From the NCBI RefSeq assembly GCF_036785885.1, contig NC_092320.1:12029557-12093556 (forward strand): 64,000 nt of DNA, in the 5' to 3' direction. Made by a program: the position numbers and the translations under genes. The stretch's first letter is position 1; every line of letters starts with the position of its first letter. Of the stretch, positions 28,627 through 60,984 are shown piece after piece. Source of the stretch: Coffea arabica (lineage: Eukaryota > Streptophyta > Magnoliopsida > Gentianales > Rubiaceae). The notes beneath the pieces were generated by a model. It saw only the letters and a list, made by a program, of their open reading frames with translations, had not been told where the DNA came from and made no database searches.

Positions 28627-28909
28627 ATATTCAAGGGCCGGCGAGATTTTGAGCCAGGTTTCCTCACGACTGATGAGCTAGACTTAATTTGATTGAAGCT
28701 GGTTTTCTCGGGTGCTGTCAACTTTTATAGAGCTTCGAGTCAGGTCATCCAAACCTGAAAGAAAACCCCAGTCACGCTGTTCCGTGTTCAGCCAGATATT
28801 CAATTTTAAACTTGCTTGGAAAACCATCAGCAATTTCATTGCCATTGCTAACCAACTAGTCGAAGCTAAATTGACCATCAGAAAAAAAAATTTAGACGGT
28901 ACGTAGTGA

Positions 28910-36913: not shown

Positions 36914-36914
36914 A

Positions 36915-37499
36915 TTTGCTCTTACGATTGTGGATAGTGCTACAGCTCTCTATAGGACAGATTTTTCTGGGAGGGGAGAGTTGTCAGCCAGGCAAATGCA
37001 TTTAGCAAAGTTCTTGAGGAGCCTTCAGAAATTAGCAGATGAGGTACAGTTCTTTATCCACTTTTGACTTTAGAATTCATACTAGGGGCCTGTCTAAACG
37101 TTAGCTTCAATTGGAGTTTTGTGCTCAACTGTTGGAAGACTTGATATTCATTCAACATCCTAGTTCTGTTTGCAGTTTGGCGTGGCTGTTGTGATTACCA
37201 ACAAGTTGTTGCCCAAGTGGATGGTTCTGCCATTTTTGCTGGGCCACAAATCAAACCTATTGGTGGCAACATCATGGCCCATGCTACAACAACAAGGTAT
37301 GCATATGCTTCTAGTGATTTTTTTTTGCTGATACACCGCTGAAGAATTAAAAACGTTTCGGTATCCTACTGACAGGCTTGCTCTTAGAAAGGGAAGGGCT
37401 GAGGAGCGCATTTGTAAAGTAATTAGCTCTCCATGCTTAGCTGAAGCTAAAGCTAGGTTTCAAATTTCTCCTGAGGGCGTAACTGATGTCAAGGACTAA
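36915..37499 (+). pseudogene. RAD51: RAD51 3' fragment: last three coding exons, frameshifted
   Basis: RAD51 is the eukaryotic RecA-like recombinase for homologous recombination. Three exons are readable: 36915-37043 (Walker-B-type [20 protein letters not shown] through KLADE), 37176-37296 (FGVAVVITN, then after the frameshift the RAD51 residues from [17 protein letters not shown] to AHATTTR) and 37376-37499 ([18 protein letters not shown] through EGVTDVKD and stop). Exon junctions have GT donors and AG acceptors. The second exon is 121 bases instead of the expected 122: after ATT ACC AAC one base is missing before the codons for QVVAQ, so the frame breaks. All upstream RAD51 exons (N-terminal domain and Walker A) are absent. 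It directly abuts block D. It is a captured gene piece, not a functional RAD51. Confidence 0.92.
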
Positions 37500-37556
37500 T
37501 CCTCTTTATTGAACGTTGCCAAAGATCTTACCCCCCCCCCCTTTTTTTTTGCTTTT

Positions 37557-40500
37557 CAGTTTAGCTTTGTGCATTCTATTGTAAAAGGTACAGTTTCTGT
37601 CACTTTTTAAGATTTTTTTTTCTGGGTAAAGAGGATCTGTTTTTGTATCATTGAGCATATTACATCTTGGTGCTGATTTTTACTTGTAACTACAAGAAGG
37701 CAAATTGAAAATCTTGTAGATTTGTCCTTGTAAATGCTATTTGCTGTTCTTCATTACTTGTCGGTCTTCTGTAACACAAGTTTCTTCTACTACTAAATGC
37801 TCGAGATTCAGTAATAGTAGTATTGTATGTATCAAGATAAAAAGATCTGGTATTTTGCTTGAAAATAAGAAAGACAGAAACAGAGTACAACAAGACTTTT
37901 AAGGAGGAGGGGATTCTGAAATTTTAGTCCATTATCGTTAGATCCACAGCCATTCAAGAGTCTCGATAAGACACCAATGGCCATTCAAGAAAAACAACTC
38001 TTGCACCCTATCCTCAAAGCATAAATAAACTCCGTCAGCAATCAGTTTCCTTTCTCAATATCCACAACTATCATCTTGGAAAAAAGTGCTACAATTCTTA
38101 ACCTCCAAACATTTTAAATTATGTCCAACCAAAGCTTGCCTTCATATGGTGTCTCATTCATTAACAAACATGTGCAATTTTATTTTTGAATTAACTCTGT
38201 GGAATATAAGAGCAAACTCAACCCATATGCAGAAAATATAAGAGTCTAAGGTTTATTTGGACTGATTATTACCATTTGAAGAATATGTATATGAAAGATA
38301 TCTAGACTAGCAATCTTTTAGAGTGAGTAATGCATAAAGAACTTCAGGTTCCACAGACGAGTATTCCTCGTGCATAAGCATTTGCAGTAATGGAAAGCAA
38401 AATTGACCAAACCAACTTCATTGCCATCCATAATTGCCCAATAGATACTCAGTAACACATCAAGTAAAAATCAAGTAAGCAAGAGAGGTCAAAAAAAGGA
38501 AAAATATATCATTACGAAGAGTCTGACGAGTTTAACAGTGCATTCATTTACAGCCATAACATTACCATTTCTCAGAGATAACATCAGCAAACAGATACCA
38601 ACACGAATTTTAACACTGGACCTGCAACTTATGGATTAGCTCGCTCGCCTTCAAAAAAACACATAATACCTGCATGAACACATTAAAAAACAGGAATCAG
38701 CCATCCCAGCAGAATTTACAACAGAATTACAGTACCTTGTACTTTGTGTACCAGTGGCACCACCAGGGAAGCCATCCCAGCAGCTGTCTCGGTGTCAGCA
38801 ACCCTTTCCGCAGCAGAGGGTCCTGGACTCGACAGCGGCCACAACAGCAGCAATAGCAGCAGGTTCCACGTATGGAATGATAGCGGAAGAAGGATCCATG
38901 AATACAATTTTAGATCCGCCCAACTCCCGGATTTGTTCACTAAGCACCGTGAGCTGCTGATGCCTAGGGTTCAGCCTCTGCATCAAGTCCGCCAATTCAG
39001 AAACCAAAGATTCCGGAACGGCATCATTGCCATCCAGAAGAAGTGCCTTTTGGTTCAACTCTTCAATAACTTCATCGGTCTCCGACAGAAGTCGGACGAC
39101 CTAATTCCTCGTATTCATGGTTGACTGCACTCTACCAGCGATTGCATCCATCTTCCGTTTTCTTTCCATTTGATCATGAAGTACAGTGAATTTTCTTAAC
39201 AGATCCTCAGCATCAGAACGCAGGACCCTAAGCCCTTCCATCATTATCTCTCTGCTCTGCCGGACTTCTCCGGGTAGTTCGTACGCCTGAAATCAGTTTA
39301 GCTTTGTGCATTCTATTGTAAAAGGTACAGTTTCTGTCACTTTTTAAGATTTTTTTTTCTGGGTAAAGAGGATCTGTTTTTGTATCATTGAGCATATTAC
39401 ATCTTGGTGCTGATTTTTACTTGTAACTACAAGAAGGCAAATTGAAAATCTTGTAGATTTGTCCTTGTAAATGCTATTTGCTGTTCTTCATTACTTGTCG
39501 GTCTTCTGTAACACAAGTTTCTTCTACTACTAAATGCTCGAGATTCAGTAATAGTAGTATTGTATGTATCAAGATAAAAAGATCTGGTATTTTGCTTGAA
39601 AATAAGAAAGACAGAAACAGAGTACAACAAGACTTTTAAGGAGGAGGGGATTCTGAAATTTTAGTCCATTATCGTTAGATCCACAGCCATTCAAGAGTCT
39701 CGATAAGACACCAATGGCCATTCAAGAAAAACAACTCTTGCACCCTATCCTCAAAGCATAAATAAACTCCGTCAGCAATCAGTTTCCTTTCTCAATATCC
39801 ACAACTATCATCTTGGAAAAAAGTGCTACAATTCTTAACCTCCAAACATTTTAAATTATGTCCAACCAAAGCTTGCCTTCATATGGTGTCTCATTCATTA
39901 ACAAACATGTGCAATTTTATTTTTGAATTAACTCTGTGGAATATAAGAGCAAACTCAACCCATATGCAGAAAATATAAGAGTCTAAGGTTTATTTGGACT
40001 GATTATTACCATTTGAAGAATATGTATATGAAAGATATCTAGACTAGCAATCTTTTAGAGTGAGTAATGCATAAAGAACTTCAGGTTCCACAGACGAGTA
40101 TTCCTCGTGCATAAGCATTTGCAGTAATGGAAAGCAAAATTGACCAAACCAACTTCATTGCCATCCATAATTGCCCAATAGATACTCAGTAACACATCAA
40201 GTAAAAATCAAGTAAGCAAGAGAGGTCAAAAAAAGGAAAAATATATCATTACGAAGAGTCTGACGAGTTTAACAGTGCATTCATTTACAGCCATAGCATT
40301 ACCATTTCTCAGAGATAACATCAGCAAACAGATACCAACACGAATTTTAACACTGGACCTGCAACTTATGGATTAGCTCGCTCGCCTTCAAAAAAACACA
40401 TAATACCTGCATGAACACATTAAAAAACAGGAATCAGCCATCCCAGCAGAATTTACAACAGAATTACAGTACCTTGTACTTTGTGTACCAGTGGCACCAC

Positions 40501-41030
40501 CAGGGAAGCCATCCCAGCAGCTGTCTCGGTGTCAGCAACCCTTTCCGCAGCAGAGGGTCCTGGACTCGACAGCGGCCATAACAGCAGCAACAGCAGCAGG
40601 TTCCACGTATGGAATGATAGCGGAAGAAGGATCCATGAATACAATTTTAGATCCGCCCAACTCCCGGATTTGTTCACTAAGCACCGTGAGCTGCTGATGC
40701 CTAGGGTTCAGCCTCTGCATCAAGTCCGCCAATTCAGAAACCAAAGATTCCGGAACGGCATCATTGCCATCCAGAAGAAGTGCCTTTTGGTTCAACTCTT
40801 CAATAACTTCATCGGTCTCCGACAGAAGTCGGACGACCTAATTCCTCGTATTCATGGTTGACTGCACTCTACCAGCGATTGCATCCATCTTCCGTTTTCT
40901 TTCCATTTGATCATGAAGTACAGTGAATTTTCTTAACAGATCCTCAGCATCAGAACGCAGGACCCTAAGCCCTTCCATCATTATCTCTCTGCTCTGCCGG
41001 ACTTCTCCGGGTAGTTCGTACGCCTGAAAT
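37557..41030 (+). repeat. Direct tandem duplication, two 1737-bp units
   Basis: Unit 1 is 37557-39293 and unit 2 is 39294-41030. They are almost identical, with only a handful of substitutions noticed over 1.7 kb. At the junction the module sequence ...gcctgaaat is joined to cagtttagctttg, which is the RAD51 3' flank. Unit 2 then continues past the breakpoint into the rest of the module. The near-identity implies a recent event or gene conversion. Confidence 0.9.
38629..39293 (-). pseudogene. Coiled-coil-like module 1 (minus, N-terminally cut)
   Basis: Derived from an unrecognised gene encoding a helical, charged protein (family motifs RQSREIMMEGL, LLRKFTVLHDR, VRLLSETDEVIEELNQKALL, LADLMQRLNPRHQQL). 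This copy begins at the 1737-bp duplication breakpoint, so it lacks the first about 20 residues. It has a stop in place of Gln (TRN-stop-VV). A short intron and a C-terminal exon ending in FEGERANP-stop are recognisable downstream. Confidence 0.8.
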
Positions 41031-41076
41031 CGGGGTATGAAAGTATCGATTTGTTCAATTAAAGAACCGAGTGCAG
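40366..41076 (-). pseudogene. Coiled-coil-like module 2 (minus)
   Basis: Almost identical to module 1 and carries the same Gln-to-stop change, but extends to the N-terminal boundary at the head-to-head spacer. It pairs with module 3, which is inverted relative to it. Confidence 0.8.
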
Positions 41077-41183
41077 AAAAAAATCACAGCGATGATAGTC
41101 GGTCCTTTCTCATGAGTTGTGACTACTAGTGTCGACCCTATTAATGATTCCGACTATGATTAGAGACTGTTTGAAGTGAAAAT
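41077..41183. repeat. Head-to-head spacer of modules 2/3, inverted relative to all other spacers
   Basis: This 107-bp spacer equals the reverse complement of the spacer at 43341-43447 between modules 4 and 5, with few differences. It begins aaaaaaatcacagcgatgat here, where the other spacers end with the complement of that sequence. Confidence 0.88.
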
Positions 41184-41894
41184 CTGCACTTGATTCTTCA
41201 ATTGAACAAATCGATACTTTCATACCCCGATTTCAGGAGTACGAACTGCCCGGAGACGTCCGACAGAGCAGAGAGATAATAATGGAAGGGCTTAGGGTCC
41301 TGCGTTCTGATGCTGAGGATCTGTTAAAAAAATTCACTGTACTTCATGATTGAATGGAAAGAAAACGGAAGATGGATGCAATCGCAGGTAGAGTGCAGTC
41401 AACCATGAATACGAGGAATCAGGTCGTTCGACTTCTGTCGGAGACCGATGAAATTATTGAAGAGTTGAACCAAAAGGCGCTTCTTCTGGATGGCAATGAT
41501 GCAGTTTCGGAATCTTTGGATTCTGAATTGGCGGACTTGATGCAGAGGTTGAACCCTAGGCATCAGCTGCTTACGGTGCTTAGTGAACAAATCCGGGAGT
41601 TGGGCAGATCTGAAATAGTATTCGTGGATCATTCTTCCGCTATCATTCCATACGTGGAACCTGCTGCTATTGCTGCTGTTGTGGCCGCTGTCGAGTCCAG
41701 GACCCTCTGCTGTGGAGAGGGTTGCTGACACCGAGACAGCTGCTGGAATGGCTTCCCTGGTGGTGCCACTGGTACACAAAGTACAAGGTACTCTAATTCT
41801 GTTGTAAATTCTGCTGGGATGGCTGATTCCTGTTTTTTAATGTGTTCATGCAGGTATTATGTGTTTTTTTGAAGGCGAGCAAGCTAATCCATAA
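41184..41894 (+). pseudogene. Coiled-coil-like module 3 (plus)
   Basis: Plus-strand copy. A CGA-to-TGA change stops the frame after LHD (just before MERKRKMD at 41354). The downstream part remains open to the shared frame break near the C-terminus. A tail-to-tail junction with module 4 is at about 42040/42041. Confidence 0.8.
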
Positions 41895-42638
41895 GATGCA
41901 GGTCCAGTGTTAAAATTCGTATTGGTATCTGTTTGCTGATGTTATCTCTGAGAAATGGTAATGTTATGGCTGTAAATGAATACACTGTTAAACTCGTCAG
42001 TTTCTTCGTAATAATCTATTTTTCCTTTTTTTGACCTCACTCCGTCAGCAATCAGTTTCCTTTCTCAATATCCACAACTATCATCCTGGAAAAAAGTGCT
42101 ACAATTCTTAACCTCCAAGCATTTTAAATTATGTCCAACCAAAGCTTGCCTTCATATGGTGTCTCATTCATTAACAAACACGTGCAATTTTATTTTTGAA
42201 TTAACTCTGTGAAATATAAGAGCAAACTCAACCCATATGCAGAAAACATAAGAGTCTAAGGTTTATTTGGACTGATTATTACCATTTGAAGAATATGTAC
42301 ATGAAAGATATCAAGACTAGCAATCTTTTAGAGTGAGTAATGCATAAAGAACTTCAGGTTCCACAGACGAGTATTCCTCGTGCATAAGCATTTGCAGTAA
42401 TGGAAAGTAAAGTTGACCAAACCAACTTCATTGCCATCCACAATTGCCCAATAGATACTCAGTAACACATCAAGTAAAAATCAAGTAAGCAAGAGAGGTC
42501 AAAAAAAGAAAAAATAGATCATTACGAAGAGTCTGACGAGTTTAACAGTGCATTCATTTACAGCCATAGCATTACCATTTCTCAGAGATAACATCAGCAA
42601 ACAGATACCAACACGAATTTTAACACTGAACCTGCAAC

Positions 42639-43340
42639 TTATGGATTAGCTCGCTCGCCTTCAAAAAAACACATAATACCTGCATGAACACATTAAAAAA
42701 CAGGAATCAGCCATCCCAGCAGAATTTACAACAGAATTACAGTACCTTGTACTTTGTGTACCAGTGGCACCACCAGGGAAGCCATCCCAGCAGCTGTCTC
42801 GGTGTCAGCAACCCTCTCCCCAGCAGAGGGCCCGGGACTCGACAGCGGCCACATCAGCAGCAGGTTCCACGTATGGAATGATAGCGGAAGAAGGATCCAC
42901 GAATACTATTTCAGATCCGCCCAACTCCCGAATTTGTTCACTAAGCACCGTGAGCTGCTGATGCCTAGGGTTCAGCCTCTGCATCAAGTCCGCCAATTCA
43001 GAATCCAAAGATTCCGGAACGGCATCATTGCCATCCAGAAGAAGCGCCTTTTGGTTCAACTCTTCAATAACTTCATCGGTCTCCGATAGAAGTCGGACGA
43101 CCTGATTCCTCGTATTCATGGTTGACTGCACTCTACCAGCGATTGCATCCATCTTCCGTTTTCTTTCCATTCGATCATGAAGTACAGTGAATTTTCTTAA
43201 CAGATCCTCAGCATCAGAACGCAGGACCCTAAGCCCTTCCATCATTATCTCTCTGCTCTGTCGGACGTCTCCGGGCAATTCGTACGCCTGAAATCGGGGT
43301 AGGAAAGTATCGATTTGTTCAATTAAAGAACCAAGTGCAG
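42639..43340 (-). pseudogene. Coiled-coil-like module 4 (minus), longest-frame type
   Basis: The main exon frame is fully open from the spacer through ALGSLIEQIDTFLPRF, YELPGDVRQSREIMMEGLRV and DAEDLLRKFTVLHDRMER to VDPSSAIIPYVEPAA, and ends ...RALCWGEGC-stop. That stop is probably not the original C-terminus: another frame continues as ERVADTETAAGMASLVVPLV and, after a GT-AG intron of about 65 bases, GIMCFFEGERANP-stop. The helical, charged composition suggests a coiled coil. No family is recognised. An open frame continues about 17 codons into the spacer. Confidence 0.7.
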
Positions 43341-43447
43341 ATCTCCACTTCAAACAGTCTCTAATCATAGTCGGAATCATTAATAGGGTCGACACTAGTA
43401 GTCACAATTCACGAGAAAGGACCGACTATCATCGCTGGGGTTTTTTT

Positions 43448-44144
43448 CTGCAATTGGTTCTTTAATTGAACAAATCGATACTTTCATACCCTGATTTCAG
43501 GCGTACGAACTGCCCCGAGACGTCCGGCAGAGCAGAGAGATAATGATGGAAGGGCTTAGGGTCCTGCGTTCTGACAAGAAAATTCACTGTACTTCATAAT
43601 CGAATGGAAAGAAAATGGAAGATGGATGCAATCGCTGGTAGAGTGCAGTCAACCATGAATACGAGGAATCAGGTCGTCCGACTTCTGTCGGAGACCGATG
43701 AAGTTATTAAAGAGTTGAACCAAAAGGCGCTTCTTCTGGATGGCAATTATGCTGTTCCGGAATCTTTGGATTATGAATTGGCGGACTTGATGCAGAGGCT
43801 GAACCGTAGGCATTAGCTGCTCACGGTGCTTAGTGAACAAATCCGGGAGTTGGGCGGATCTGAAATAGAATTCGTGGATCCTTCTTCCGCTATCATTGCA
43901 TACGTGGAACCTGCTGCTGTTGCGGCTGTTGTGGCCGCTGTCGAGTCCAGGACCCTCTGCCGGGGAGAGGGTTGCTGACACCGAGACAGATGCTGGGATG
44001 GCTTCCCTGGTGGTGCCACTGGTACACAAAGTACAAGGTACTGTAATTCTATTGTAAATTCTGCTGGGATGGCTGATTCCTGTTTTTTAATGTGTTCATG
44101 CAGGTATTATGTGTTTTTTTTAAGGCGAGCGAGCTAATCCATAA
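43448..44144 (+). pseudogene. Coiled-coil-like module 5 (plus), degraded
   Basis: A 14-base deletion removes the codons after LRSD (cgttctgacaagaaaattc), and CAG-to-TAG gives a stop after NRRH. Both lesions recur in module 13, so modules 5 and 13 share an ancestor. Confidence 0.8.
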
Positions 44145-44888
44145 GTTGCAGGTCCAGTGTTAAAATTCGTGTTTGTATCTGTTTGCTGATGTTATCTCTG
44201 AGAAATGGTAATGCTATGGCTGTAAATGAATGCACTGTTAAACTCGTCAGACTATTCGTAATGATCTATTTTTCCTTTTTTTGACCTCACTCCGTCAGCA
44301 ATCAGTTTTCTTTCTCAATATCCGCAACTATCATCCTGAAAAAAAGTGCTACAATTCTTAATCTCCAAGCATTTTAAATTATGTCCAACCAAAGCTTGCC
44401 TTCATATGGTGTCTCATTCATTAACAAACATGTGCAATTTTATTTTTGAATTAATTCTGTGGAATATAAGAGCAAACTCAACCCATATGCAGAAAACATA
44501 AGAGTCTAAGGTTTATTTGGACTGATTATTACCATTTGAAGAATATGTATATGAAAGATATCTAGACTAGCAATCTTTTAGAGTGAGTAATGCATAAAGA
44601 ACTTCAGGTTCCACCGACGAGTATTCCTCGTGCATAAGCATTTGCAGTAATGGAAAGCAACGTTGACCAAACCAACTTCATTGCCATCCACAATTGGCCA
44701 ATAGATACTCAGTAACACATCAAGTAAAAATCAAGTAAGCAAGAGAGGTCAAAAAAAGGAAAAATATATCATTACGAAGAGTCTGACGAGTTTAACAGTG
44801 CATTCATTTACAGCCATAGCATTACCATTTCTCAAAGATAACATCGGCAAACAGATACCAGCACGAATTTTAACACTGGACCTGCAAC

Positions 44889-45590
44889 TTATGGATTAGC
44901 TCGCTCGCCTTCAAAAAAACACATAATACCTGCATGAACACATTAAAAAACAGGAATCAGCCATCCCAGCAGAATTTACAACAGAATTACAGTACCTTGT
45001 ACTTTGTGTACCAGTGGCACCACCAGGGAAGCCATCCCAGCAGCTGTCTCGGTGTCAGCAACCCTCTCCCCAGCAGAGGGTCCTGGACTCGACAGCGGCC
45101 ACATCAGCAGCAGGTTCCACGTATGGAATGATAGCGGAAGAAGAATCCACGAATACTATTTCAGATCCGTCCAACTCCCGGATTTGTTCACCAAACATCG
45201 TGAGCTGCTGATGCCTAGGGTTCAGCCTCTGCATCAAGTCCGCCAATTCAGAATCCAAAGATTCCGGAACGGCGTCATTGCCTTGTAGAAGAAGCGCCTT
45301 TTGGTTCAACTCTTCAATAACTTCATCGGTCTCCGACAAAAGTCGGACAACCTGATTCCTCGTATTCATGGTTGACTGCACTCTACCAGCGATTGCATCC
45401 ATCTTCCGTTTTCTTTCCATTCGATCATGAAATACAGTGAATTTTCTTAATAGATCCTCAGCATCAGAACGCAGGACCATAAGCCCTTCCATCATTATCT
45501 CTCTGCTCTGCCGGACGTCTCCGGGCAGTTCGTATGCCTGAAATCGGGGTATGAAAGTATCGATTTGTTCAATTAAAGAACCAAGTGCAG
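44889..45590 (-). pseudogene. Coiled-coil-like module 6 (minus), open main frame
   Basis: Open like module 4, but with the variant LDGSEIVFVDSSSAI shared with module 12, and LLQGNDAV where most copies have LLDGNDAV. It ends with the common frame-breaking C-terminus. Confidence 0.75.
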
Positions 45591-45697
45591 ATCTCCACTT
45601 CAAACAGTCTATAATCATAGTCGAAATCAATAATAGGGTCGACACTAGCAGTCACAACTCCCGAGAAAGGACCGACTATCATCGTTGGGGTTTTTTT

Positions 45698-46408
45698 CTG
45701 CACTTGGTTCTTTAATTGAACAAATCGATACTTTCGTACCCCGATTTCAGGCGTACGAACTGCCCGGAGACGTCCGTCAGAGCAGAGAGATAATGATGGA
45801 AGGGCTTAGGGTCATGCGTTCTGATGCTGAGGATCTGTTAAGAAAATTCACTGTACTTCATGATCGAATCGAAAGAAAACGGAAGATGGATGCAATCGCT
45901 GGTAGAGTGCAGTCAACCATGAATAGGAGGAATCAGGTCGTCCGACTTCTGTCGGAGACCGATGAAATTATTGAAGAGTTGAACCAAAAGGCGCTTCTTC
46001 CGGATGGCAATGATGCCGTTCCGGAATCTTTGGATTCTGAATTGGCGGACTTGATGCAGAGGCTGAACCCTAGGCATCAGCTGCTCACGGTGCTTAGTGA
46101 ACAAATCCGGGAGTTGGGCGGATCTGAAATTGTATTCGTGGATCCTTCTTCCGCTATCATTCCATACGTGGAACCTGCTGCTGTTGCTGCTGTTATGGCC
46201 GCTGTCGAGTCCAGGACCCTCTGCTGCGGAAAGGGTTGCTGACACCGAGACAGCTGCTGGGATGGCTTCCCTGGTGGTGCCACTGGTACACAAAGTACAA
46301 GGTACTGTAATTCTATTGTAAATTCTGCTGGGATGGCTGATTCCTGTTTTTTAATGTGTTCATGCAGGTATTATGGGTTTTTTTGAAGGCGAGCGAGCTA
46401 ATCCATAA
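45698..46408 (+). pseudogene. Coiled-coil-like module 7 (plus), open main frame
   Basis: Open from SALGSLIEQIDTF to the common frame break. It carries the variants MNRRN and LLPDGNDAV that also mark module 9. The alternative C-terminal frame continues through VADTETAAGMASLVVPLVHK. Confidence 0.75.
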
Positions 46409-47152
46409 GTTGCAGGTCCAGTGTTAAAATTCGTGTTGGTATCTGTTTGCTGATGTTATCTCTGAGAAATGGTAATGCTATGGCTGTAAATGAATGCACT
46501 GTTAAACTCGTCAGACTCTTCGTAATGATTTATTTTTCCTTTTTTTGACATCACTCCGTCAGCAATCAGTTTCCTTTCTCAATATCCGCAACTATCATCC
46601 TGAAAAAAAGTGCTACAATTCTTAATCTCCAAGCATTTTAAATTATGTCCAACCAAAGCTTGCCTTCATATGGTGTCTCATTCATTAACAAACACGTGCA
46701 ATTTTATTTTTGAATTAACTCTGTGAAATATAAGAGCAAACTCAACCCATATGCAGAAAACATAAGAGTCTAAGATTTATTTGGACTGATTCTTACCATT
46801 TGAAGAATATGTATATGAAAGATATCAAGACTAGCAATCTTTTAAAGTGAGTAATGCATAATGAACTTCAGGTTCCACAGACGAGTATTCCCCGTGCATA
46901 AGCATTTGCAGTAATGGAAAGTAAAGTTGACCAAACCAACTTCATTGCCATCCACAATTGCCCAATAGATACTCAGTAACACATCAAATAAAAATCAAGT
47001 AAGCAAGAGAGGTCAAAAAAAGGAAAAATAGATCATTACGAAGAGTCTGACGAGTTTAACAGTGCATTCATTTACAGCCATAGCATTACCATTTCTCAGA
47101 GATAACATCAGCAAACAGATACCAACACGAATTTTAACACTGAACCTGTAAC

Positions 47153-47854
47153 TTATGGATTAGCTCGTTCGCCTTCAAAAAAACACATAATACCTGCATG
47201 AACACATTAAAAAACAGGAATCAGCCATCCCAGCAGAATTTACAACAGAATTACAGTAACTTGTACTTTTTGTACCAGTGGCACCACCAGGGAAGCCATC
47301 CCAGCAGCTGTCTCGGTGTCAGCAACCCTCTCCCCAGCAGAGGGCCCGGGACTCGACAGCGGCCACATCAGCAGCAGGTTCCACGTATGGAATGATAGCG
47401 GAAGAAGGATCCACGAATACTATTTCAGATCCGCCCAACTTCCGGATTTGTTCACTAAGCACCGTGAGCTGCTGATGCCTAGGGTTCAGCCTCTGCATCA
47501 AGTCCGCCAATTCAGAATCCAAAGATTCCGGAACGGCATCATTGCCATCCAGAAGAAGCGCCTTTTGGTTCAACTCTTCAATAACTTCATCGGTCTCCGA
47601 CAGAAGTCGGACGACCTGATTCCTCGTATTCATGGTTGACTTCACTCTACCAGCGATTGCATTCGTCTTCCGTTTTCTTTCCATTCGATCATGAAGTACA
47701 GGGAATTTTCTTAACAGATCCTCAGCATCAGAACGCAGGATCCTAAGCCCTTCCATCATTATCTCTCTGCTCTGCCGGACGTCTCCGGGCAGTTCGTACG
47801 CCTGAAATCGGGGTATGAAAGTATCGATTTGTTCAATTAAAGAACCAAGTGCAG
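47153..47854 (-). pseudogene. Coiled-coil-like module 8 (minus), beside the hAT insertion
   Basis: Open main frame with the RALCWGEGC end shared with modules 4 and 10, and with RKTNAIAGRVKS substitutions. The spacer that should follow it is split by the hAT element at 47905-52787. Confidence 0.75.
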
Positions 47855-48179
47855 ATCTCCACTTCAAACAGTCTCTAATCATAGTCGGAATCATTAATAG
47901 GGTCTAGGGGTGTGCAAAGTCGAAAAATTTCGATTTCGAAATCGATTTCGAATTGAATTCGGAAGTTCGAATTCGGAAGTTCGGTAATTCGGAAGTGAAT
48001 TCGGTAATTCCGATTTCGAATATGTCGAAATCGGATCGAATTCGAAAATAAGAAATTTGAAATCGGAATTACCGAATTCGAAATAGGAATTCGAAATAGG
48101 AAATTCGATATCGAATTCGAATTAATATAATTAATATATTATATTCGAATTATATATATACATATATATTATATAACAT

Positions 48180-49628: not shown

Positions 49629-51832
49629 ATGTCCACTTTTGAGATAGAAGGTTCAAGTGATTCAACACCATCTTCAAGTCCAGCTCCTATTTCCGGCAGC
49701 TGTGAAGAATCTGGCCTTGGTGTTAAGAAAAAGAGAGGCGAGTACAAGAAAAGGTCACCAGCTTGGGATCATTTTCAGCCTCACTATGTCCAAGGTGTTC
49801 GTCATGGCATATGTAATTACTGTACGAAAATGATAGCTGCTGATCCGAAGTCTAATGGTACTAGTCCTCTCTTATCCCATGTTAAATCATGTGAAATGAA
49901 TCCTACAAATAAGTCTAAGGGGCAAGGTACATTATGCTTGGGTGAGGTTGGTGGTTTTGGGGGGGATGTTAAGAGTGCACTTATTAGTTGGAAGTATGAC
50001 GCTGATGCAATTAGAAAAAGCATTGCTTATATGTTGATTGTTGATGAATTGCCATTCAAACATGTAGAAGGTAAAGGATTTCAGCATGTCATGAGAACTG
50101 CTTGTCCTTCTTTTCAAATTCCTTCAAGGTGGACAATTACTAGAGATTGCTATCAACTTTATTTAGATGAAAAAATTAAGTTGAAGAATATGCTGAGGCG
50201 TAGAGCTGTTAGAGTTTGTCTTACCACTGATTGTTGGACATCTATCCAGCGAATAAATTATATGTGTTTGACAGCTCACTTTATTGACTGTGATTGGCAA
50301 TTGAACAAAAGAATTTTAAATTTTTGTCCAATTAGTAGTCATAAAGGGACTGAAATTGGGAAGAGTATTGAGAAATGCTTATTAGAGTGGGGGATTGATG
50401 ATATTTTCACAGTAACAGTTGACAATGCTGCTTCAAATGACACGGCTGTGCAATATTTGGTTGAAAAATTGCAAAATTGGGGTAAATCTCTATTAGGAGG
50501 AAAGTGGATTCATATAAGATGTGTAGCTCACATAATCAATTTGATTGTGAGTGATGGCCTAAAAAAATTTGGGGGGTCCGTTGATTCTATCCGAACAGCT
50601 GTGAGATACATTACGCAATCACCTTCTCGTTTGAAAAAATTCAAGGAATGTGCTGAAATTGAAAAAATTGACAGTAAAAGGTTACTAAGTTTAGATGTGG
50701 CAACTAGGTGGAACTCAACCTACTTAATGTTAGACAGTGCTCATAGGTTTGAGAGGGCATTTGAGAGGTTTGAGGAGCAAGATCCATATATGCTGCATGA
50801 GCTAGAGCACTTGCCAACAAAAAGTGATTGGGAAAAGGCAAGATTCTTAACTTTATTTTTGGAGAACTTTTATGATCTCACAGTAAAGGTTTCTGGTTCC
50901 AAATATGTGACATCTAATAATCTTATCAATGAGCTTAGTCACATTAATGGCATCCTAAAGGAAATGGCAGAAAGTGCTAATCCCGACTTGTGTGGAATGG
51001 CAAAAATAATGAAAGAGAAGTATGACAAGTATTGGGGAAGATTGGAGAAAATGAACATGTTGATTTTCATTGCTTACATGCTTGATCCTAGGACAAAGTT
51101 TGAGTACTTTGAATTCATTGCTTGTAAAATGTATGGTGATACCGAAGGTGCTGTTGTGGCTCATGTAGCCAAGGATGCAATGTATGAATTGTTTAATGAT
51201 TACAAGAGACTCAATACTCCTGCTGGATCTTCTCAATCCTCTATTTCTTCACTTTCTAGTGGATCTGAAAATAGCATCTCTTCCTTTGATGGAGAAGTCT
51301 CCAAAAAAATAAATGATAGATACAGAATTGAGTTCAAGAAAAGAAAAGTTGAACTTGGAGGAAAGAATGCTAAATCTGAACTTGACAAATATTTGAGTGA
51401 GGATTGTGAGGATGAGGATCCCGAGTTCGATATCTTGAATTGGTGGAAAGGTAATAGTCTTCGGTTGCCAATACTTTCGCAAATGGCTCGTGATGTGTTG
51501 GCTGTCCCGGTCTCTACGGTTGCTTCCGAATCTGCCTTTAGTACCGGAGGACGTGTTCTTGACCCATTCAGAAGCTCTTTAACTCCAAGGATTGTGCAAG
51601 CCTTGATTTGTGCTCAAGACTGGTTTCGGGCATCCGAAAATGAGTTGAATGTAGAAGAAAAATTGGAGGATCTTGAGGAATTTGAATCTGGTAAATTATC
51701 TTCTTTTTTATTGACAAACTTGAAATATTTTTTCTATTCATAAATGCAATTAAGCTACTTCATTATTTTTTTCTTTCTTGAATAATAGGTTTGATCAAAG
51801 GAGGTGCAGAAGCCACAATTGTTGATGTTTGA
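49629..51832 (+). CDS. hAT transposase, BED zinc finger / RICESLEEPER-like
   Basis: Catalyses cut-and-paste transposition of its element by binding the ends. The chosen start ATG (49629) lies 5 bases after a strong 3' splice site. The frame is open further upstream, but that stretch is intron-like. It has about 701 residues in two coding exons: 49629-51690 and 51789-51832, joined across a 98-bp GT-AG intron. This gives the C-terminus ESGLIKGGAEATIVDV instead of reading into the intron. Domains: BED finger about 43-90 (C62, C65, H84, C88), RNase H-like core with D201 in TTDCWTS and D265 in TVDNAASND, the RCVAHIINL motif near 297-305, ATRWNSTYL near 358, and the hAT C-terminal dimerisation region about 583-667, where E633 in ASESAFSTGG is a candidate third acidic residue. 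No internal stop was seen, so it may be active. Confidence 0.92.
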
Positions 51833-52852
51833 ATTTTCTAATGGTGATTCTGATTTGGTGCTCATAGAAATTCAAGTTTGAAATGTTGTCAAACTGAAAT
51901 GTTGTCTTATTTGTTTGAAAGGCACTTTGGTTACATTTGTATAACAGTATAAGTATTCTCGTATGAAAGACTGGAATTGTTTGATAATAGTTTATTTGTA
52001 TTATTTACTGGAATTGTTTTGTATTTGAAATTTGGACTGGAATGGTTGTATAAGTATTCTCGTATGAAGTGGTAGAGTTCTTGTGATTTATGGTATTGAA
52101 TAGGCACTCTGGAATGTGGAGTTGAATGTGGAATTGTTATTCAGCTTCATCCTTTCCTCTTGAATTTGAGACAACTGACCTGTGGAATGTGGAATCCAAG
52201 GGGACTGCATTTACTTTGAACAGATTTTCTGTTTTTGATTTGTTATTATCCTTATGATTGTTTCATTGTGGGTCTTGAACGAATTTCATTTCATTCCAAG
52301 TCACAAAATTGAAACTTTAATTTGATTGAAGAACTTTTTTGGTAGATGGTCTGTTGTTTCCTTGATTTGTGGTTTATAGTATCTACAAATGCTTTGAGTT
52401 GCTTTGTTCAAAGCATATCCTAAGCTTTATTTGGCTTTTTGATTGTTTGGCCTATTTTTAAGTTGATTAGTCGTGGAATATGTGCTGAAGGTGTTCTATG
52501 ACTTTATTCTGGTTAACAACCTGTTTTGGTTTGGAGGAGGAACAGCTTTCAAATCTTCTATTAAATAGAAGCGAAATTATGTTTCTTGCAAGAAAGGAGA
52601 GGGCAAAAAAAAAAAAAAAATCGGAATTCGGAATTTACCGAATTCCGAATTCAATTCGGTATCGAATTCGAATTCGGAATTCGTCATTTCGAATTCGAAT
52701 TCGGTCGGTAAAATTGAAGCCAAATTTTCGAAAAATTCCGAATTCAAACTTCCGAATTACCGAATTCGAATTCGATGCACACCCCTAATAGGGTCGACAC
52801 TAGTAGTCACAATTCACGAGAAAGGACCGACTATCATCGCTGGGGTTTTTTT

Positions 52853-54888
52853 CTGCACTTGGTTCTTTAATTTGAACAAATCGATACTTTCGTACCCCGA
52901 TTTCAGGTGTACGAACTGCCCGGAGACGTCCGGCAGAGCAAAGAGATAATGATGGAAGGGCTTAGGGTCATGCGTTCTGATGCTGAGGATCTGTTAAGAA
53001 AATTCACTGTACTTCATGATCGAATCGAAAGAAAACGGAAGATGGATGCAATCGCTGGTAGAGTGCAGTCAACCATGAATAGGAGGAATCAGGTCGTCCG
53101 ACTTCTGTCGGAGACCGATGAAATTATTGAAGAGTTGAACCAAAAGGCGCTTCTTCCGGATGGCAATGATGGCGTTCCGGAATCTTTGGATTCTGAATTG
53201 GCGGACTTGATGCAGAGGCTGAACCCTAGGCATCAGCTGCTCACGGTGCTTAGTGAACAAATCCGGGAGTTGGGCGGATCTGAAATTGTATTCGTGGATC
53301 CTTCTTCCGCTATCATTCCATACGTGGAACCTGCTGCTGTTGCTGCTGTTATGGCCGCTGTCGAGTCCAGGACCCTCTGCTGCGGAAAGGGTTGCTGACA
53401 CCGAGACAGCTGCTGGTAGAAGTGGCAAAATGGATATATGGTTGATAAATGGTTTTAGTTAAATGGATTGTGGATCAAATTGATCCAATCCAATTAAAAC
53501 CATTTAATAAATGGTTATAAATGGATGTCATTTAAATGGATAGTGTAAACCATGATCCATCCATTTATCCATTTACTCTCCCAAATCCTAAATTTAAGAT
53601 CAAAATATTTTTTTTCAAAAAATACAGATCCCCAAAGTTCTATCCTTAAATCACCTAAAACCTTTTGGTAATAACAAATGCTTGTACTACTACTCTATTT
53701 CAGTTCTTCATAAAATTAGTTTAATTCCAAGAAAATTTAACTGTTGTAGTCAATTTAACCTTTCGTCATTACTTTAAGTATCATTTTGTAAAGTAATGAA
53801 CAATTAAGAACTTGACTATATTTTTATAACTTTTGAATGAATTGAATACGGCTTTACAGTGAAAAAAAGTTTACGTTTCCAATTTTTTGCACTCCTGTTC
53901 AAGAGTGATGTCTTGAATAAAAGTGGAGTTCTAATAAGAAATCTTATGTTATTTGACAAGTAAAATATTTGCATCACATGTGCACGTAGTACCTAAAAAT
54001 GTATGAAACTCCTTATTATACCATTGATATACCAGCTACCTTATATTACTTAGTAAATTAGGTGTCTTTTGTTTTTTGGATAGTTGAGTTGGGTGATAAG
54101 GGGAGAGGGATTGCAAGTATGAGGATTTGGAAAAAAAAAAAAAAAAGGTGTCATTTACATATTTTAACCAATGTTGCGGGGACACTCGTTAGAAAATTTT
54201 TTTTTATAAATAAAAGAATTAAAAAAATAAAAATTATTTTGACACTGCATGATGCATTCTCGCTTTTTCTTTACTTAAGAATATAAATGTTTGCAATCAT
54301 TACTACATGTGAGTATAATTTAAAAAAAACAAGAGTAGAGACTAAAATATAATTTTGAAAAGGATGGAAGAAGTCTAGGAACTAGAAACAAATAAAATGC
54401 AATTAATGTTATTGGCAACTTGGCATGTGAGAAAGTTATGAAGAAAAGAATAGGTGGTCCCACAAAATTAATTTGACATATGAGGAAGTTATGAAGAAAA
54501 GAATAGATGGTCCCACAAGATTTTATCTCACATTTTTATAAATGTGTTTTCTATTTTTTAAATTAAATGGATGTATATGGATAAGATGGATAATCCATTT
54601 AAATCCACTAACATAATTGGATTTAAATGGTTATCCATTTAAAACCATTGAATTTATATGGATCATCCAAATCCATTTAAGGTTGGTTTATATGGATGGA
54701 TTAGTGGATATGAATCCATTTTGCCACTTCTAGCTGCTGGGATGGCTTCCCTGGTGGTGCCACTGGTACACAAAGTACAAGGTACTGTAATTCTATTGTA
54801 AATTCTGCTGGGATGGCTGATTCCTGTTTTTTAATGTGTTCATGCAGGTATTATGGGTTTTTTTGAAGGCGAGCGAGCTAATCCATAA
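52853..54888 (+). pseudogene. Coiled-coil-like module 9 (plus), split by a MITE
   Basis: The main exon at 52853-53398 is open to the common frame break, with the MNRRN and LLPDGND variants shared with module 7. The sequence is then interrupted at 53417 by the 1316-bp element and resumes at 54741 with the rest of the C-terminal frame and the last exon. Without the insertion it would match module 7 closely. Confidence 0.8.
53417..54732. mobile_element. Non-autonomous hAT-type element, 1316 bp
   Basis: The inverted termini TAGAAGTGGCAAAATGGAT are perfect over 19 bp (53417-53435, complement at 54714-54732). They are flanked by the 8-bp target duplication gctgctgg (53409-53416 and 54733-54740). 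Subterminal sequence is rich in repeated aaatgg/ccattt phrases on both sides. No transposase frame. The interior contains a near-duplicate of about 50-60 bp (ttatgaagaaaagaatag at about 54437 and 54490). Confidence 0.9.
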
Positions 54889-55632
54889 GTTGCAGGTCCA
54901 GTGTTAAAATTCGTGTTGGTATCTGTTTGCTGATGTTATCTCTGAGAAATGGTAATGCTATGACTGTAAATGAATGCACTGTTAAACTCGTCAAACTCTT
55001 CTTAATGATCTATTTTTCCTTTTTTTGACCTCACTCCGTCAGCAATCAGTTTTCTTGCTCAATATCCGCAACTATCATCCTGAAAAAAAGTGCTACAATT
55101 CTTAATCTCCAAGCATTTTAAATTATGTCCAACCAAAGCTTGCCTTCATATGGTGTCTCATTCATTAACAAACACGTGCAATTTTATTTTTGAATTAACT
55201 CTGTGAAATATAAGAGCAAACTCAACCCATATGCTGAAAACATAAGAGTCTAAGGTTTATTTGGACTGATTATTACCATTTGAAGAATATGTATATGAAA
55301 GATATCAAGACTAGCAATCTTTTAAAGTGAGTAAGGCATAAAGAACTTCAGGTTCCACAGACGAGTATTCCTCGTGCATAAGCATTTGCAGTAATGGAAA
55401 GTAAAGTTGACCAAACCAACTTCATTGCCATCCACAATTGCCCAATAGATACTCAGTAACACATCAAGTAAAAATCAAGTAAGCAAGAGAGGTCAAAAAA
55501 AGGAAAAATAGATCATTACGAAGAGTCTGACGAGTTTAACAGTGCATTCATTTACAGCCATAGCATTACCATTTCTCAGAGATAACATCAGCAAACAGAT
55601 ACCAACACGAATTTTAACACTGAACCTGCAAC

Positions 55633-56334
55633 TTATGGATTAGCTCGTTCGCCTTCAAAAAAACACATAATACCTGCATGAACACATTAAAAAACAGGAA
55701 TCAGCCATCCCAGCAGAATTTACAACAGAATTACAGTACCTTGTACTTTGTGTACCAGTGGCACCACCAGGGAAACCATCCCAGCAGCTGTCTCGGTGTC
55801 AGCAACCCTCTCCCCAGCAGAGGGCCCGGGACTCGACAGCGGCCACATCAGCAGCAGGTTCCACGTATGGAATGATAGCGGAAGAAGGATCCACGAATAC
55901 TATTTCAGATCCGCCCAACTCTCGGATTTGTTCACTAAGCACCGTGAGCTGCTGATGCCTAGGGTTCAGCCTCTGCATCAAGTCCGCCAATTCAGAATCC
56001 AAAGATTCCGGAACGGCATCATTGCCATCCAGAAGAAGCGCCTTTTGGTTCAACTCTTCAATAACTTCATCGGTCTCCGACAGAAGTCGGACGACCTGAT
56101 TCCTCGTATTCATGGTTGACTGCACTCTACCAGTGATTGCATCCATCTTCCGTTTTCTTTCCATTCGATCATGAAGTACAGTGAATTTTCTTAACAGATC
56201 CTCAGCATCAGAACGCAGGATCCTAAGCCCTTCCATCATTATCTCTCTGCTCTGTCGGACGTCTCCGGGCAGTTCGTACGCCTGAAATCGGGGTATGAAA
56301 GTATCGATTTGTTCAATTAAAGAACCAAGTGCAG
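55633..56334 (-). pseudogene. Coiled-coil-like module 10 (minus), open main frame
   Basis: Open as in modules 4 and 8, with the RALCWGEGC end. It has MDAITGRVQ where the others have MDAIAGRVQ. Confidence 0.75.
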
Positions 56335-56441
56335 ATCTCCACTTCAAACAGTCTCTAATCATAGTCGGAATCATTAATAGGGTCGACACTAGTAGTCACA
56401 ATTCACGAGAAAGGACCGACTATCATCGCTGGGGTTTTTTT

Positions 56442-57144
56442 CTGCACTTGGTTCTTTAATTTGAACAAATCGATACTTTCGTACCCCGATTTCAGGTGTA
56501 CGAACTGCCCGGAGACGTCCGGCAGAGCAGAGAGATAATGATGGAAGGGCTTAGGGTCATGCGTTCTGATGCTGAGGATCTGTTAAGAAAATTCACTGTA
56601 CTTCATGATCGAATAGAAAGAAAATGGAAGATGGATGCAATCGCTGGTAGAGTGCAGTCAACCATGAATACGAGGAATCAGGTCGTCCGACTTCTGTCGG
56701 AGACCGATGAAGTTATTAAAGAGTTGAACCAAAAGGCGCTTCTTCTGGATGGCAATGATGCCGTTCCGGAATCTTTGGATTCTGAATTGGCGGACTTGAT
56801 GCAGAGGCTGAACCCTAGGCATCAGCTGCTCACGGTGCTTAGTAAACAAATCCGGGAGTTGGACGGATCTGAAATAGTATTCGTGGATCCTTCTTCCGAT
56901 ATCATTCCATACGCGGAACCTGCTGCTGATGTGGCCGCTGTCGAGTCCAGGACCCTCTGCTGGGGAGAGGGTTGCTGACACCGAGACAGCTGCTGGTATG
57001 GCTTCCCTGGTGGTGCCACTAGAACACAAAGTACAAGGTACTGTAATTCTGTTGTAAATTCTGCTGGGATGGCTGATTCCTGTTTTTTAATATGTTCATG
57101 CATGTATTATGTGTTTTTTTGAAGGCGAGCGAGCTAATCCATAA
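56442..57144 (+). pseudogene. Coiled-coil-like module 11 (plus), open main frame
   Basis: Open to the common frame break. It carries VIKELNQ (shared with module 5) and PSSDIIPYAEPAADV, so it resembles a chimera of plus and minus module variants. This is consistent with gene conversion. Confidence 0.75.
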
Positions 57145-57888
57145 GTTGCAGGTCCAGTGTTAAAATTCGTGTTGGTATCTGTTTGCTGATGTTATCTCTG
57201 AGAAATGGTAATGCTATTGCTGTAAATGAATGCACAGTTAAACTCGTCAGACTCTTCGTAATGATTTATTTTTCCTTTTTTTGACCTCACTCCGTCAGCA
57301 ATCAGTTTCCTTTCTCAATATCCGCAACTATCATCCTTGAAAAAAGTGCTATAATTCTTAACCTCCAAGCAATTTAAATTATGTCCAACCAAAACTTGCC
57401 TTCATATGGTGTCTCATTCATTAACAAACATGTGCAATTTTATTTTTGAATTAACTCTGTGGAATATAAGAGCAAACTCAACCCATATGCAGAAAACACA
57501 AGAGTCTAAGGTTTATTTGGACTGATTATTACCATTTGAAAAATATGTATATGAAAGATATCAAGACTAGCAATCTTTTAGAGTGAGTAATGCATAAAGA
57601 ACTTCTGGTTCCACAGACGAGTATTCCTCGTGCATAAGCATTTGCAGTAATGGAAAGCAAAGTTGACCAAACCAACTTCATTGCCATCCACAATTGCCCA
57701 ATAGATACTCAGTAACACATCAAGTAAAAATCAAGTAAGCAAGAGAGGTCAAAAAAAGGAAAAATATATCATTACGAAGAGTCTGACGAGTTTAACAGTG
57801 CATTCATTTACAGCCATAGCATTACCATTTCTCAGAGATAACATCGGCAAACAGATACCAGCACGAATTTTAACACTGGACCTGCAAC

Positions 57889-58590
57889 TTATGGATTAGC
57901 TCGCTCGCCTTCAAAAAAACACATAATACCTGCATGAACACATTAAAAAACAGGAATCAGCCATCCCAGCAGAATTTACAACAGAATTACAGTACTTTGT
58001 ACTTTGTGTACCAGTGGCACCACCAGGGAAGCCATCCCAGCAGCAATCTCGGTGTCAGCAACCCTCTCCCCAGCAGAGGGTCCTGGACTCGACAGCGGCC
58101 ACATCAGCAGCAGGTTCCACGTATGGAATGATAGCGGAAGAAGAATCCACGAATACTATTTCAGATCCGTCCAACTCCCGGATTTGTTCACTAAGCACCG
58201 TGAGCTGCTGATGCCTAGGGTTCAGCCTCTGCATCAAGTCCGCCAATTCAGAATCCAAAGATTCCGGAACGGCATCATTGCCATCCAGAAGAAGCGCCTT
58301 TTGGTTCAACTCTTCAATAACTTCATCGGTCTCCGACAGAAGTCGGACGACCTGATTCCGCGTATTCATGGTTGACTGCACTCTAACAGCGATTGCATTC
58401 ATCTTCCGTTTTCTTTCCATTCGATCATGAAGTACAGGGAATTTTCTTAACAGATCCTCAGGATCAGAACGCAGGATCCTAAGCCCTTCCATCATTATCT
58501 CTCTGCTCTGCCGGACGTCTCCGGGCAGTTCGTACACCTGAAATCGGGGTATGAAAGTATCGATTTGTTCAATTAAAGAACCAAGTGCAG
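57889..58590 (-). pseudogene. Coiled-coil-like module 12 (minus), open main frame
   Basis: Open main frame. It shares LDGSEIVFVDSSSAI with module 6 and has SDPEDLLRKFPV and IAVRVQS substitutions. Confidence 0.75.
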
Positions 58591-58697
58591 ATCTCCACTT
58601 CAAACAGTCTCTAATCATAGTCGGAATCATTAATAGGGTCGACACTAGTAGTCACAATTCACGAGAAAGGACCGACTATCATCGCTGGGGTTTTTTT

Positions 58698-59381
58698 CTG
58701 CAATTGATTCTTTAATTGAACAAATCGATACTTTCATACCCCGATTTCAGGCGTACGAATTGCCCGGAGACGTCCGGCAGAGCAGAGAGATAATGATGGA
58801 AGGGCTTAGGGTCCTGCGTTCTGATAAGAAAATTCACTGTATTTCATGATCGAATGGAAAGAAAATGGAAGATGGATGCAATCGCTGGTAGAGTGCAGTC
58901 AACCATGAATACGAGGAATCAGGTCGTCCGACTTCTGTCGGAGACCGATGAAGTTATTGAAGAGTTGAACCAAAAGGCGCTTCTTCTGGATGGCAATGAT
59001 GCTGTTCCGGAATCTTTGGATTCTGAATTGGCGGACTTGATGCAGAGGCTGAACCGTAGGCATTAGCTGCTCACGGTGCTTAGTGAACAAATCCGGGAGT
59101 TGGGCGGATCTGAAATAGTATTCGTGGATCCTTCTTCCGCTATCATTCCATACGTGGAACCTGCTGTTGTTGCCGCTGTCGAGTCCAGGACCCTCTGCTG
59201 GGGAAAGGGTTGCTGACACCGAGACAGTGGCTGGGATGGCTTCCCTGGTGGTGCCACTGGTACACAAAGTACAAGGTACTGTAATTCTGTTGTAAATTCT
59301 GCTGGGAAGGCTGATTCCTGTTTTTTAATGTGTTCATGCAGGTATTATGTGTTTTTTTAAGGCGAGCGAACTAATCCATAA
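58698..59381 (+). pseudogene. Coiled-coil-like module 13 (plus), degraded, start of the right arm
   Basis: It has the same 14-base deletion (cgttctgataagaaaattc) and the same stop after NRRH as module 5. It continues without the tail-to-tail junction directly into the mirrored RAD51 3' flank (59520 onward). Confidence 0.8.
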
Positions 59382-60099
59382 GTTGCAAGTCCAGTGTTAA
59401 AATTCGTGTTGGTATCTGTTTGCTGATGTTATCTCTGAGAAATGGTAATGCTATGGCTGTAAATGAATGCACTGTTAAACACTTCAGACTCTTCGTAATG
59501 ATCTATTTTTCCTTTTTTTGACCTCTCTTGCTTACTTGATTTTTACTTGATGTGTTACTGAGTATCTATTGGGCAATTGTGGATGGCAATGAAGTTGGTT
59601 TGGTCAACTTTGCTTTCCATTACTGCAAATGCTTATGGACGAGGAATACTCGTCTGTGGAACCTGAAATTTTTTATGCATTACTCACTCTAAAAGATTGC
59701 TAGTCTTGATATCTTTCATATACATATTCTTCAAATCGTAATAATCAGTCCAAATAAACCTTAGACTCTTATGTTTTCTGCATATGGGTTGAGTTTGCTC
59801 TTATATTCCACAGAGTTAATTCAAAAATAAAATTGCACATGTTTGTTAATGAATGAGACACCATATGAAGGCAAGCTTTGGTTGGACATAATTTAAAATG
59901 CTTAGAGATTAAGAATTGTAGCACTTTTTTCCAGGATGATAGTTATGGATATTGAGAAAGGAAACTGATTGCTGACGGAGTTTATTTATGCTATGAGGAT
60001 AGGGTGCAAGAGTTGTTTTTCTTGAATGGCCATTGGTGTCTTATCGAGACTCTTGAATGGCTGTGGATCTAACGATAATGGACTAAAATTTCAGAATCC

Positions 60100-60325
60100 C
60101 CTCCTCCTTAAAAGTCTTGTTGTACTATGTTTCTGTCTTTCTTATTTTCAGGCAAAATACCAGATCTTTTTATCTTGATACATACAATACTACTATTACT
60201 GAATCTCGAGCATTTAGTAGCAGAAGAAACTTGTGTTACAGAAGACCGACAAGTAATGAAGAACAGCAAATAGCATTTACAAGGACAAATCTGCAAGATT
60301 TTCAATTTGCCTTCTTGTAGTTACA
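60100..60325 (+). other. Mirrored segment between the module and RAD51, possible exon or UTR
   Basis: This is the inverted counterpart of 37685-37900 and 39422-39640. An acceptor-like site (tttcttattttcag, to about 60150) is followed by a frame reading NTRSFYLDTYNTTITESRAF and onward to a stop near 60320. It could be a terminal exon or 3' UTR of the coiled-coil gene, convergent with RAD51. No ATG starts it and no domain is recognised. Confidence 0.3.
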
Positions 60326-60565
60326 AGTAAAAATCAGCACCAAGATGTGATATGCTCTTCTCAAGGGCTGAATTGTTCTTCCTGTATCCCTTCTTGTAAA
60401 CTGATTCACAAACTGAAATGATACAAAAACAGATCCTCTTTACCCAGAAAAAAAAATCTTAAAAAGTGACAGAAACTATACCTTTTACAATAGAATGCAC
60501 AAAGCTAAACTGAAAAGCAAAAAAAAGGGGGGGGTAAGATCTTTGGCAACGTTCAATGAAGAGGA

Positions 60566-60889
60566 TCAGTCCTTGACATCAGTTACGCCCTCAGGAGAAA
60601 TTTGAAACCTAGCTTCAGCTTCAGCTAAGCATGAAGAGCTAATTACTTTACAAATGCGCTCCTCAGCCCTTCCCTTTCTAAGAGCAAGCCTGTCAGTAGG
60701 ATACCGAAACGTTTTTAATTCTTCAGCGGTGTATCAGCAAAAAAAAATCACTAGAAGCATATGCATACCTTGTTGTTGTAGCATGGGCCATGATGTTGCC
60801 ACCAATAGGTTTGATTTGTGGCCCAGCAAAAATGGCAGAACCATCCACTTGGGCAACAACTTGTTGGTAATCACAACAGCTACACCAAA
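60566..60889 (-). pseudogene. RAD51: RAD51 3' fragment, inverted copy (last two coding exons)
   Basis: Minus-strand mirror of 37176-37499. The last exon at 60566-60689 encodes [20 protein letters not shown] through EGVTDVKD and ends in TGA rather than the TAA of the left copy. The previous exon at 60769-60889 is again 121 bases, with the same missing base after ATT ACC AAC, so both copies descend from one frameshifted ancestor. LAEAEARF here is closer to typical plant RAD51 than LAEAKARF in the left copy. The exon with the Walker-B-type motif is absent: the arm ends in the preceding intron at 60984. Confidence 0.92.
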
Positions 60890-60984
60890 CTGCAAACAGA
60901 ACTAGGATGTTGAATGAATATCAAGTCTTCCAACAGTTGAGCACAAAACTCCAACTGAAGCTAACGTTTAGACAGGCCCCTAGT

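Follow-up and report, generated by a model that had tools for sequence, protein, structure and literature searches.

We analysed a 64,000-nucleotide window of Coffea arabica DNA (contig NC_092320.1; all positions are those of the window), in which a palindromic array of about 24 kb, spanning 36917-60984, was delimited by self-BLAST and segment mapping. The array is composed of the 3' part of RAD51 (R), two spacers (Y and X), the body of a convergent gene encoding a short coiled-coil protein (C) and a short centre (c). From left to right the segments follow the order R-Y-X-C, then Y-X-C-c-C', then five units of X-C-c-C' and finally X'-Y'-R', amounting to 13 copies of C, 8 of X, 3 of Y and 2 of R. 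The analysis below indicates that the amplified segment was already non-coding, and that it was probably inverted once and then spread as dyads.

Layout of the array

A first-pass annotation, made from the letters alone, had described inward-pointing RAD51 3' parts at both ends, with 13 copies of another gene piece between them in alternating orientation, and had proposed a self-comparison of the window. The self-BLAST recovered this palindromic layout; the RAD51 parts lie where they had been placed (36917-37555 on the forward strand and 60514-60984 on the reverse strand), and segment mapping confirmed the count of 13. The alternating orientation held only in part. The coiled-coil copies are indeed inverted relative to each other, seven in one orientation and six in the other, one of the six being split by an insertion, but they do not simply alternate: the repeat unit is an X-C-c-C' dyad of ~2.25 kb, arranged head to tail. 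X runs in the same direction in seven of its eight copies, and the mirrored X'-Y'-R' is found at the right end only. Inverted matches reach 2.65 kb at 91-98% identity, far above chance. The array thus shows a feature of natural plant hairpin-RNA silencing loci that we tested for: inverted arms, long and nearly identical, flank a short spacer.

The left flank (36115-36916, forward strand) is one of several paralogous cluster repeats and is truncated at 36916 by the array; it is 91% identical to 29870-30670, and its portion 36231-36893 is 87% identical to 62633-63263. The array opens with R (36917-37555, forward), which holds three exons with their introns and a frame break. Segment mapping places Y1, the spacer at the RAD51 3' side, at 37556-38028 and X1 at 38029-38481, both on the forward strand. 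They are followed by C01 (38482-39294, reverse), comprising the gene body and 3' part of the coiled-coil gene with an in-frame stop. Y2-X2-C02 (39293-41031, forward) repeats 37556-39294 in tandem; the two agree at 99.83% over 1739 bases, so that the duplication is recent. The six dyads, to which no strand is assigned, lie at 39766-42041 (dyad 1, with its centre flipped), 42039-44291 (dyad 2), 44289-46555 (dyad 3, whose C' copy, C07, carries an open frame at 45685-46242), 46553-55035 (dyad 4, broken by two insertions), 55033-57291 (dyad 5) and 57289-59528 (dyad 6); dyads 2, 5 and 6 were defined by self-BLAST together with segment mapping. The right end consists of X8 (59529-59981, reverse; segment mapping), the sole inverted X, of an inverted Y' (59982-60513, reverse) in which ~60 bp have no counterpart in Y1, and of R' (60514-60984, reverse), the RAD51 tail in inverted orientation, in which the frame is broken as it is in R. 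The right arm is 164 bp shorter than the left, since 60984 pairs with 37081, within a RAD51 intron.

Both insertions in dyad 4 are later additions. A hAT element occupies the dyad centre (47905-52787, forward strand) and is flanked by an 8-bp target duplication, ATAGGGTC. Its transposase frame is open from the BED finger to the dimerisation domain (Dimer_Tnp_hAT, 1.5e-33), and the element is apparently intact and possibly autonomous. The other insertion is hAT-like and 1.3 kb long (53417-54732, no strand assigned), with ends TAGAAGTGGCAAAATGG and an 8-bp target duplication, GCTGCTGG; the list of open frames shows none above 74 codons within it.

Decayed RAD51 and coiled-coil sequences

Two RAD51 exon pieces match the Pfam family Rad51 with E values of 7.6e-18 and 7.9e-11. 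Among solved structures in the PDB their best matches are RAD51, with DMC1 behind, which identifies them as RAD51 rather than DMC1 or RadA. Both tails are frame-shifted at one and the same spot, between VITN and QVVAQ, consistent with the loss of one base, and neither tail in the array keeps an intact RAD51 frame. The tails retain their introns and so go back to DNA rather than to a processed transcript.

The coiled-coil gene matched no Pfam family over its cut-off, and its best match in the PDB had an E value of 0.76, none being credible. Two protein searches, in the second of which the best 8000 candidates were scored, yielded at least five relatives among ENA proteins (P0001-P0005). No relative was confirmed in viral contigs or genome contigs. 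Two of the relatives, P0003 and P0004, continue in one frame into ...VADTETGMASVMGPLVHNVQG(Y/F)LGFLEG(R/G)RANP. The array copies reach a similar end (...EGERANP) only past a +1 frame offset and an apparent GT-AG intron, the donor motif of which, as searched, is exact in 11 of the 13 copies. The offset is present in all 12 copies that could be scored; in the remaining one, C05, no upstream marker was detected. Stops or 14-base deletions interrupt C01, C02, C03, C05 and C13. Within the coiled-coil copies there are eight open frames, 160-196 codons long.

For the counts of substitutions, selection and divergence, the near-copies C01 (of C02) and X1 (of X2) were omitted. Across 12 of the 13 coiled-coil copies we counted 88 distinct changes, made up of 25 synonymous, 60 non-synonymous and 3 stop changes. 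The shares expected under the array's own mutation spectrum are 27.3%, 68.3% and 4.4%, respectively (p 0.81 for the synonymous share). Nothing in these changes points to purifying selection; they fit neutral decay of the copies, so that the open frames kept by some of them reflect youth and not selection. Together, the frame breaks shared by the RAD51 tails and by the coiled-coil copies and the lack of purifying selection indicate that the segment was already dead when it was amplified.

Junctions, copy relationships and proposed origin

A single breakpoint, GACCTCACTCCGTCAGC, is found at all five C'-to-X joins, one of which carries a single base change, and the right end retains the unbroken C'-X' order, mirror of the left end. 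All six centres align as one sequence, with that of dyad 1 reversed and the two parts of that of dyad 4 put together around the insertion; in each of the five uninterrupted centres, GTGCAGA and TCTGCA enclose 105 bases. As one breakpoint serves five joins and there is one centre sequence, these junctions point to one inverted duplication and one dyad duplication, followed by unequal exchange. The earlier proposal of a segment inverted and then amplified as dyads is upheld as far as these two features go, the one centre type and the one tandem breakpoint used five times. Unequal exchange, which it had suggested, and conversion gain support from the flipped centre of dyad 1 and from the copy relationships, which are mosaic: similarity by position joins C07 with C09 (1.1%) and C04 with C10 (1.1%), the tree pairs C06 with C12 and C05 with C13, and the groupings C07-C09, C04-C08-C10, C06-C12 and C05-C13 vary along the copies. 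The C copies differ by 3.7% on average (2.2% transitions, 1.5% transversions; ratio 1.41) and the X copies by 3.0% (2.1% and 0.9%), and among 12 C copies 102 of 138 minor variants are singletons.

To distinguish the two sides of the centre we relied on the relative P0005 (64% identity), which aligns to the A side from its first residue (M...MI..CLKW) and to the B side convincingly only from AL. This alignment probably marks the A side as the native 5' end, with the fold junction on the B side. The difference between the two sides also makes it less likely that two genes natively stood head to head and shared the centre.

We propose that a pseudogenic segment, consisting of the RAD51 3' end, a spacer of ~0.9 kb and the convergent coiled-coil gene, was present at a tandem gene cluster or was joined into it, perhaps after capture from elsewhere. 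A single inverted duplication would have produced the palindrome R-Y-X-C-c-C'-X'-Y'-R', most simply through foldback of a strand just upstream of the coiled-coil gene with a loop of ~105 bases; a loop of this length at the B-side junction suits foldback or template-switch models (PMC4689423) without proving one. A single illegitimate event that duplicated the central dyad X-C-c-C' in tandem could then have supplied the substrate for unequal exchange among dyads, raising their number to six, and exchange between inverted arms may have flipped the centre of dyad 1. Separately, a recent tandem duplication copied Y-X-C at the left, and the two hAT-type elements entered dyad 4. Taken as a whole, this sequence of a dead segment, inverted duplication, dyad duplication and unequal exchange is in our judgement the probable history, held with some reserve.

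Several observations weigh against this account. The outer arms (R and Y) differ at only 14 of 944 positions, 1.5%, with 12 transitions and 2 transversions (1.3% and 0.2%). They are thus less diverged than the inner copies, and one has to assume either that conversion acted between the outer arms or that the inner copies decayed faster. The left arm extends 164 bp past the right arm, and in the right flank nothing of the array reappears across 60985-62632 at an E value of 1e-3, R-Y-X-C included, so that the proposed history does not explain the right boundary. The segment could also be a broken original instead of a captured copy, and the probable choice of the native side of the centre depends on a single distant relative, P0005.

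Repeats of the inverted and tandem type pose difficulties for assembly, and the first-pass annotation had named misassembly of a simpler palindrome as a real alternative. In such a case a simpler palindrome, or two haplotypes, would have been misjoined into six dyads. The near-identity of the duplicated left Y-X-C (99.83%) would agree with such an artefact, and so would P0001 and P0002, which imply copy arrangements that are absent from the window. Against it stand the average divergence of 3-4% among copies with its many singletons, the proper target duplications of both insertions and P0001 itself, which comes from a separate 927-base ENA contig and probably reads across the inverted junction. 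P0001 begins with MGFFSALGSLIEQ, like the frame that crosses the B side of the centre (45685-46242), and its residues 21-182 are identical to C04 throughout (162 of 162). Since C04 faces the A side in the window (42805-43395), another arrangement exists in another molecule, haplotype or assembly. Provided that the B side is the fold junction, P0001 supports the inverted junction but not the order of the copies. P0002, an array-like protein from another contig, has its best window match in C06 (97.4%) and joins variants of different copies, which hints at copies or haplotypes beyond the window. The divergence, the target duplications and the junction in P0001 make misassembly less likely, and we regard it as quite improbable while keeping it in view.

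Two further explanations we hold to be very improbable. A foldback or gene-capturing transposon with very long inverted ends would account for the long inverted ends with gene pieces inside, and a hAT element does lie within the array, but the right arm is 164 bp shorter, the ends consist of RAD51 exon and intron sequence and, as judged by eye, there is no target duplication at 36916/60985; with its ends unmatched, this candidate was rejected. That the coiled-coil copies form a functional gene array kept for dosage has equally little to recommend it: the eight open frames speak in its favour, the stops and 14-base deletions in five copies speak against it, and the neutral pattern of change together with the shared frame offset led us to reject it. 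The array is probably a real, if unusual, case of amplified dead DNA and not a new kind of element.

The surroundings consist of a tandem cluster of genes and intergenic sequence (3497-36916 and 62633-64000), in which self-BLAST finds paralogous blocks at 67-98% identity, for example the pairs at 3.5/13.4, 8.9/23.0, 11.6/28.0 and 29.0/35.0 kb and the set at 30/36/62.6 kb. The cluster open frames at 9201-9608, 15005-15679, 28258-28677 and 31131-31793 matched no Pfam family over its cut-off. In the right cluster repeat, an insertion of ~0.34 kb (63264-63601), with GCATTAAAC on both sides by eye, is missing from the 30.6 kb copy. The paralogous flanks yielded no clean empty site for the array: past the left cut the paralog is not taken up again at 60985, apart from a match of AGTTAATTACT, seen by eye, that may be due to chance. 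A self-complementary stretch of ~127 bp (61568-61694; 74%) is perhaps a small inverted-repeat element. At the far left of the window, direct copies of 847 bp (1-847 and 2486-3332; 99.2%) surround a non-LTR element, a frame of which (1537-3030) has zf-RVT and RVT_3 domains. By its content, namely this element, the hAT transposase and the intron-bearing RAD51 exons, the window has the look of plant nuclear DNA.

Possible hairpin RNA, related loci and significance

Compatible with the origin proposed above is the idea that the array acts as a natural hairpin-RNA silencing locus. Transcripts of the dyads would fold into stems of ~0.9 kb and be diced into small RNAs, by which the array would be methylated in turn; an intact coiled-coil gene, and RAD51 through the antisense tails, may be silenced as well. 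We consider this possible, though short of an even chance. The middle 991 bases of dyad 3 are predicted to fold into one long stem at -835 kcal/mol, compared with a mean of -283 (sd 9) for 20 shuffled sequences. Substitutions point the same way. In an initial control, which was poorly polarised, the C-to-T rate in CHH context was 1.2 and 1.9 times that of A-to-G, a point against the idea; because changes on the outgroup branch could not be given a direction, this control was replaced by two polarised flanking controls. C-to-T versus A-to-G changes then numbered 91:15 in the array (C and X) and 18:25 in the controls (Fisher odds ratio 8.4, p 2e-7), and in CHH context alone 51:15 and 9:25 (odds ratio 9.4, p 1e-6); the CHH C-to-T rate over that of A-to-G is ~7-9 in the array and 0.5 and 1.7 in the polarised controls. 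This enrichment has the direction expected of methylated inverted repeats and suggests methylation of the array without proving it. A bias from G:C to A:T is the ordinary mutation bias of plants, the flanking controls are small, polarity in the array was set by majority, the transition to transversion ratio in C is merely 1.41 and the RAD51 arms lie 23 kb apart, all of which tell against the idea.

A study of hairpin transgenes (PMC9263138) reports that inverted-repeat DNA is methylated, that this methylation is kept in two mutants of RNA-directed methylation, and that mismatches between the arms prevented methylation and allowed escape from self-silencing. The last of these results speaks against strong present-day self-silencing of arms as diverged as those of the array. 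A bolder version, in which the array is a self-amplified RNA-interference locus, we think unlikely: six dead-born hairpin dyads would give small RNAs against a lineage-specific coiled-coil family and antisense RNA against RAD51, and unequal exchange would set the dosage by changing the number of dyads.

The nearest known kinds of locus are plant inverted gene clusters, such as the soybean I locus, and inverted pseudogene pairs of rice. The I locus is a 27-kb inverted cluster of chalcone synthase genes (CHS1-3-4 / CHS4-3-1) that acts through small RNAs (PMC3804491; PMC6710647). It shares with the array a plant setting, a similar size, inverted gene copies and copy-number change by repeat exchange. 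The I locus has two multi-gene arms around one centre, and its small RNAs were shown, whereas the array has six tandem dyads of a dead gene, and small RNAs from it are a prediction. The rice loci likewise have adjacent, opposed pseudogenes able to form a stem and give hairpin small RNAs (PMC2708354), but they are two pairs with stems of 185 and 155 bases, compared with stems of ~0.9 kb in six dyads here. Tandem inverted duplication by the ODIRA or foldback routes (PMC4689423) also leaves an inverted junction, in which short inverted matches enclose a loop. Its products are inverted triplications (2n+1) whose middle copy is reversed, whereas the array combines one inversion with head-to-tail dyads. 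As an ODIRA amplicon the array was rejected, as it holds no inverted triplication with the flank continuing from the segment, and 60985-62632 matches no part of the array.

Our searches of open-licence literature listed no description of this array. The earlier remark that no named element type has such a layout overstates the oddity, inverted small-RNA gene clusters such as the soybean I locus being known in plants. What is new here is a variant, in which short hairpin dyads of one pseudogene stand in tandem between the mirrored tails of another. The locus offers a well-preserved record of palindrome formation and of the subsequent head-to-tail spread of hairpin dyads in a plant chromosome, in which the amplified DNA was already non-coding. 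Should it give rise to small RNAs, the array would count as a natural silencing locus with multiple hairpins, the strength of which may be tied to the number of dyads.

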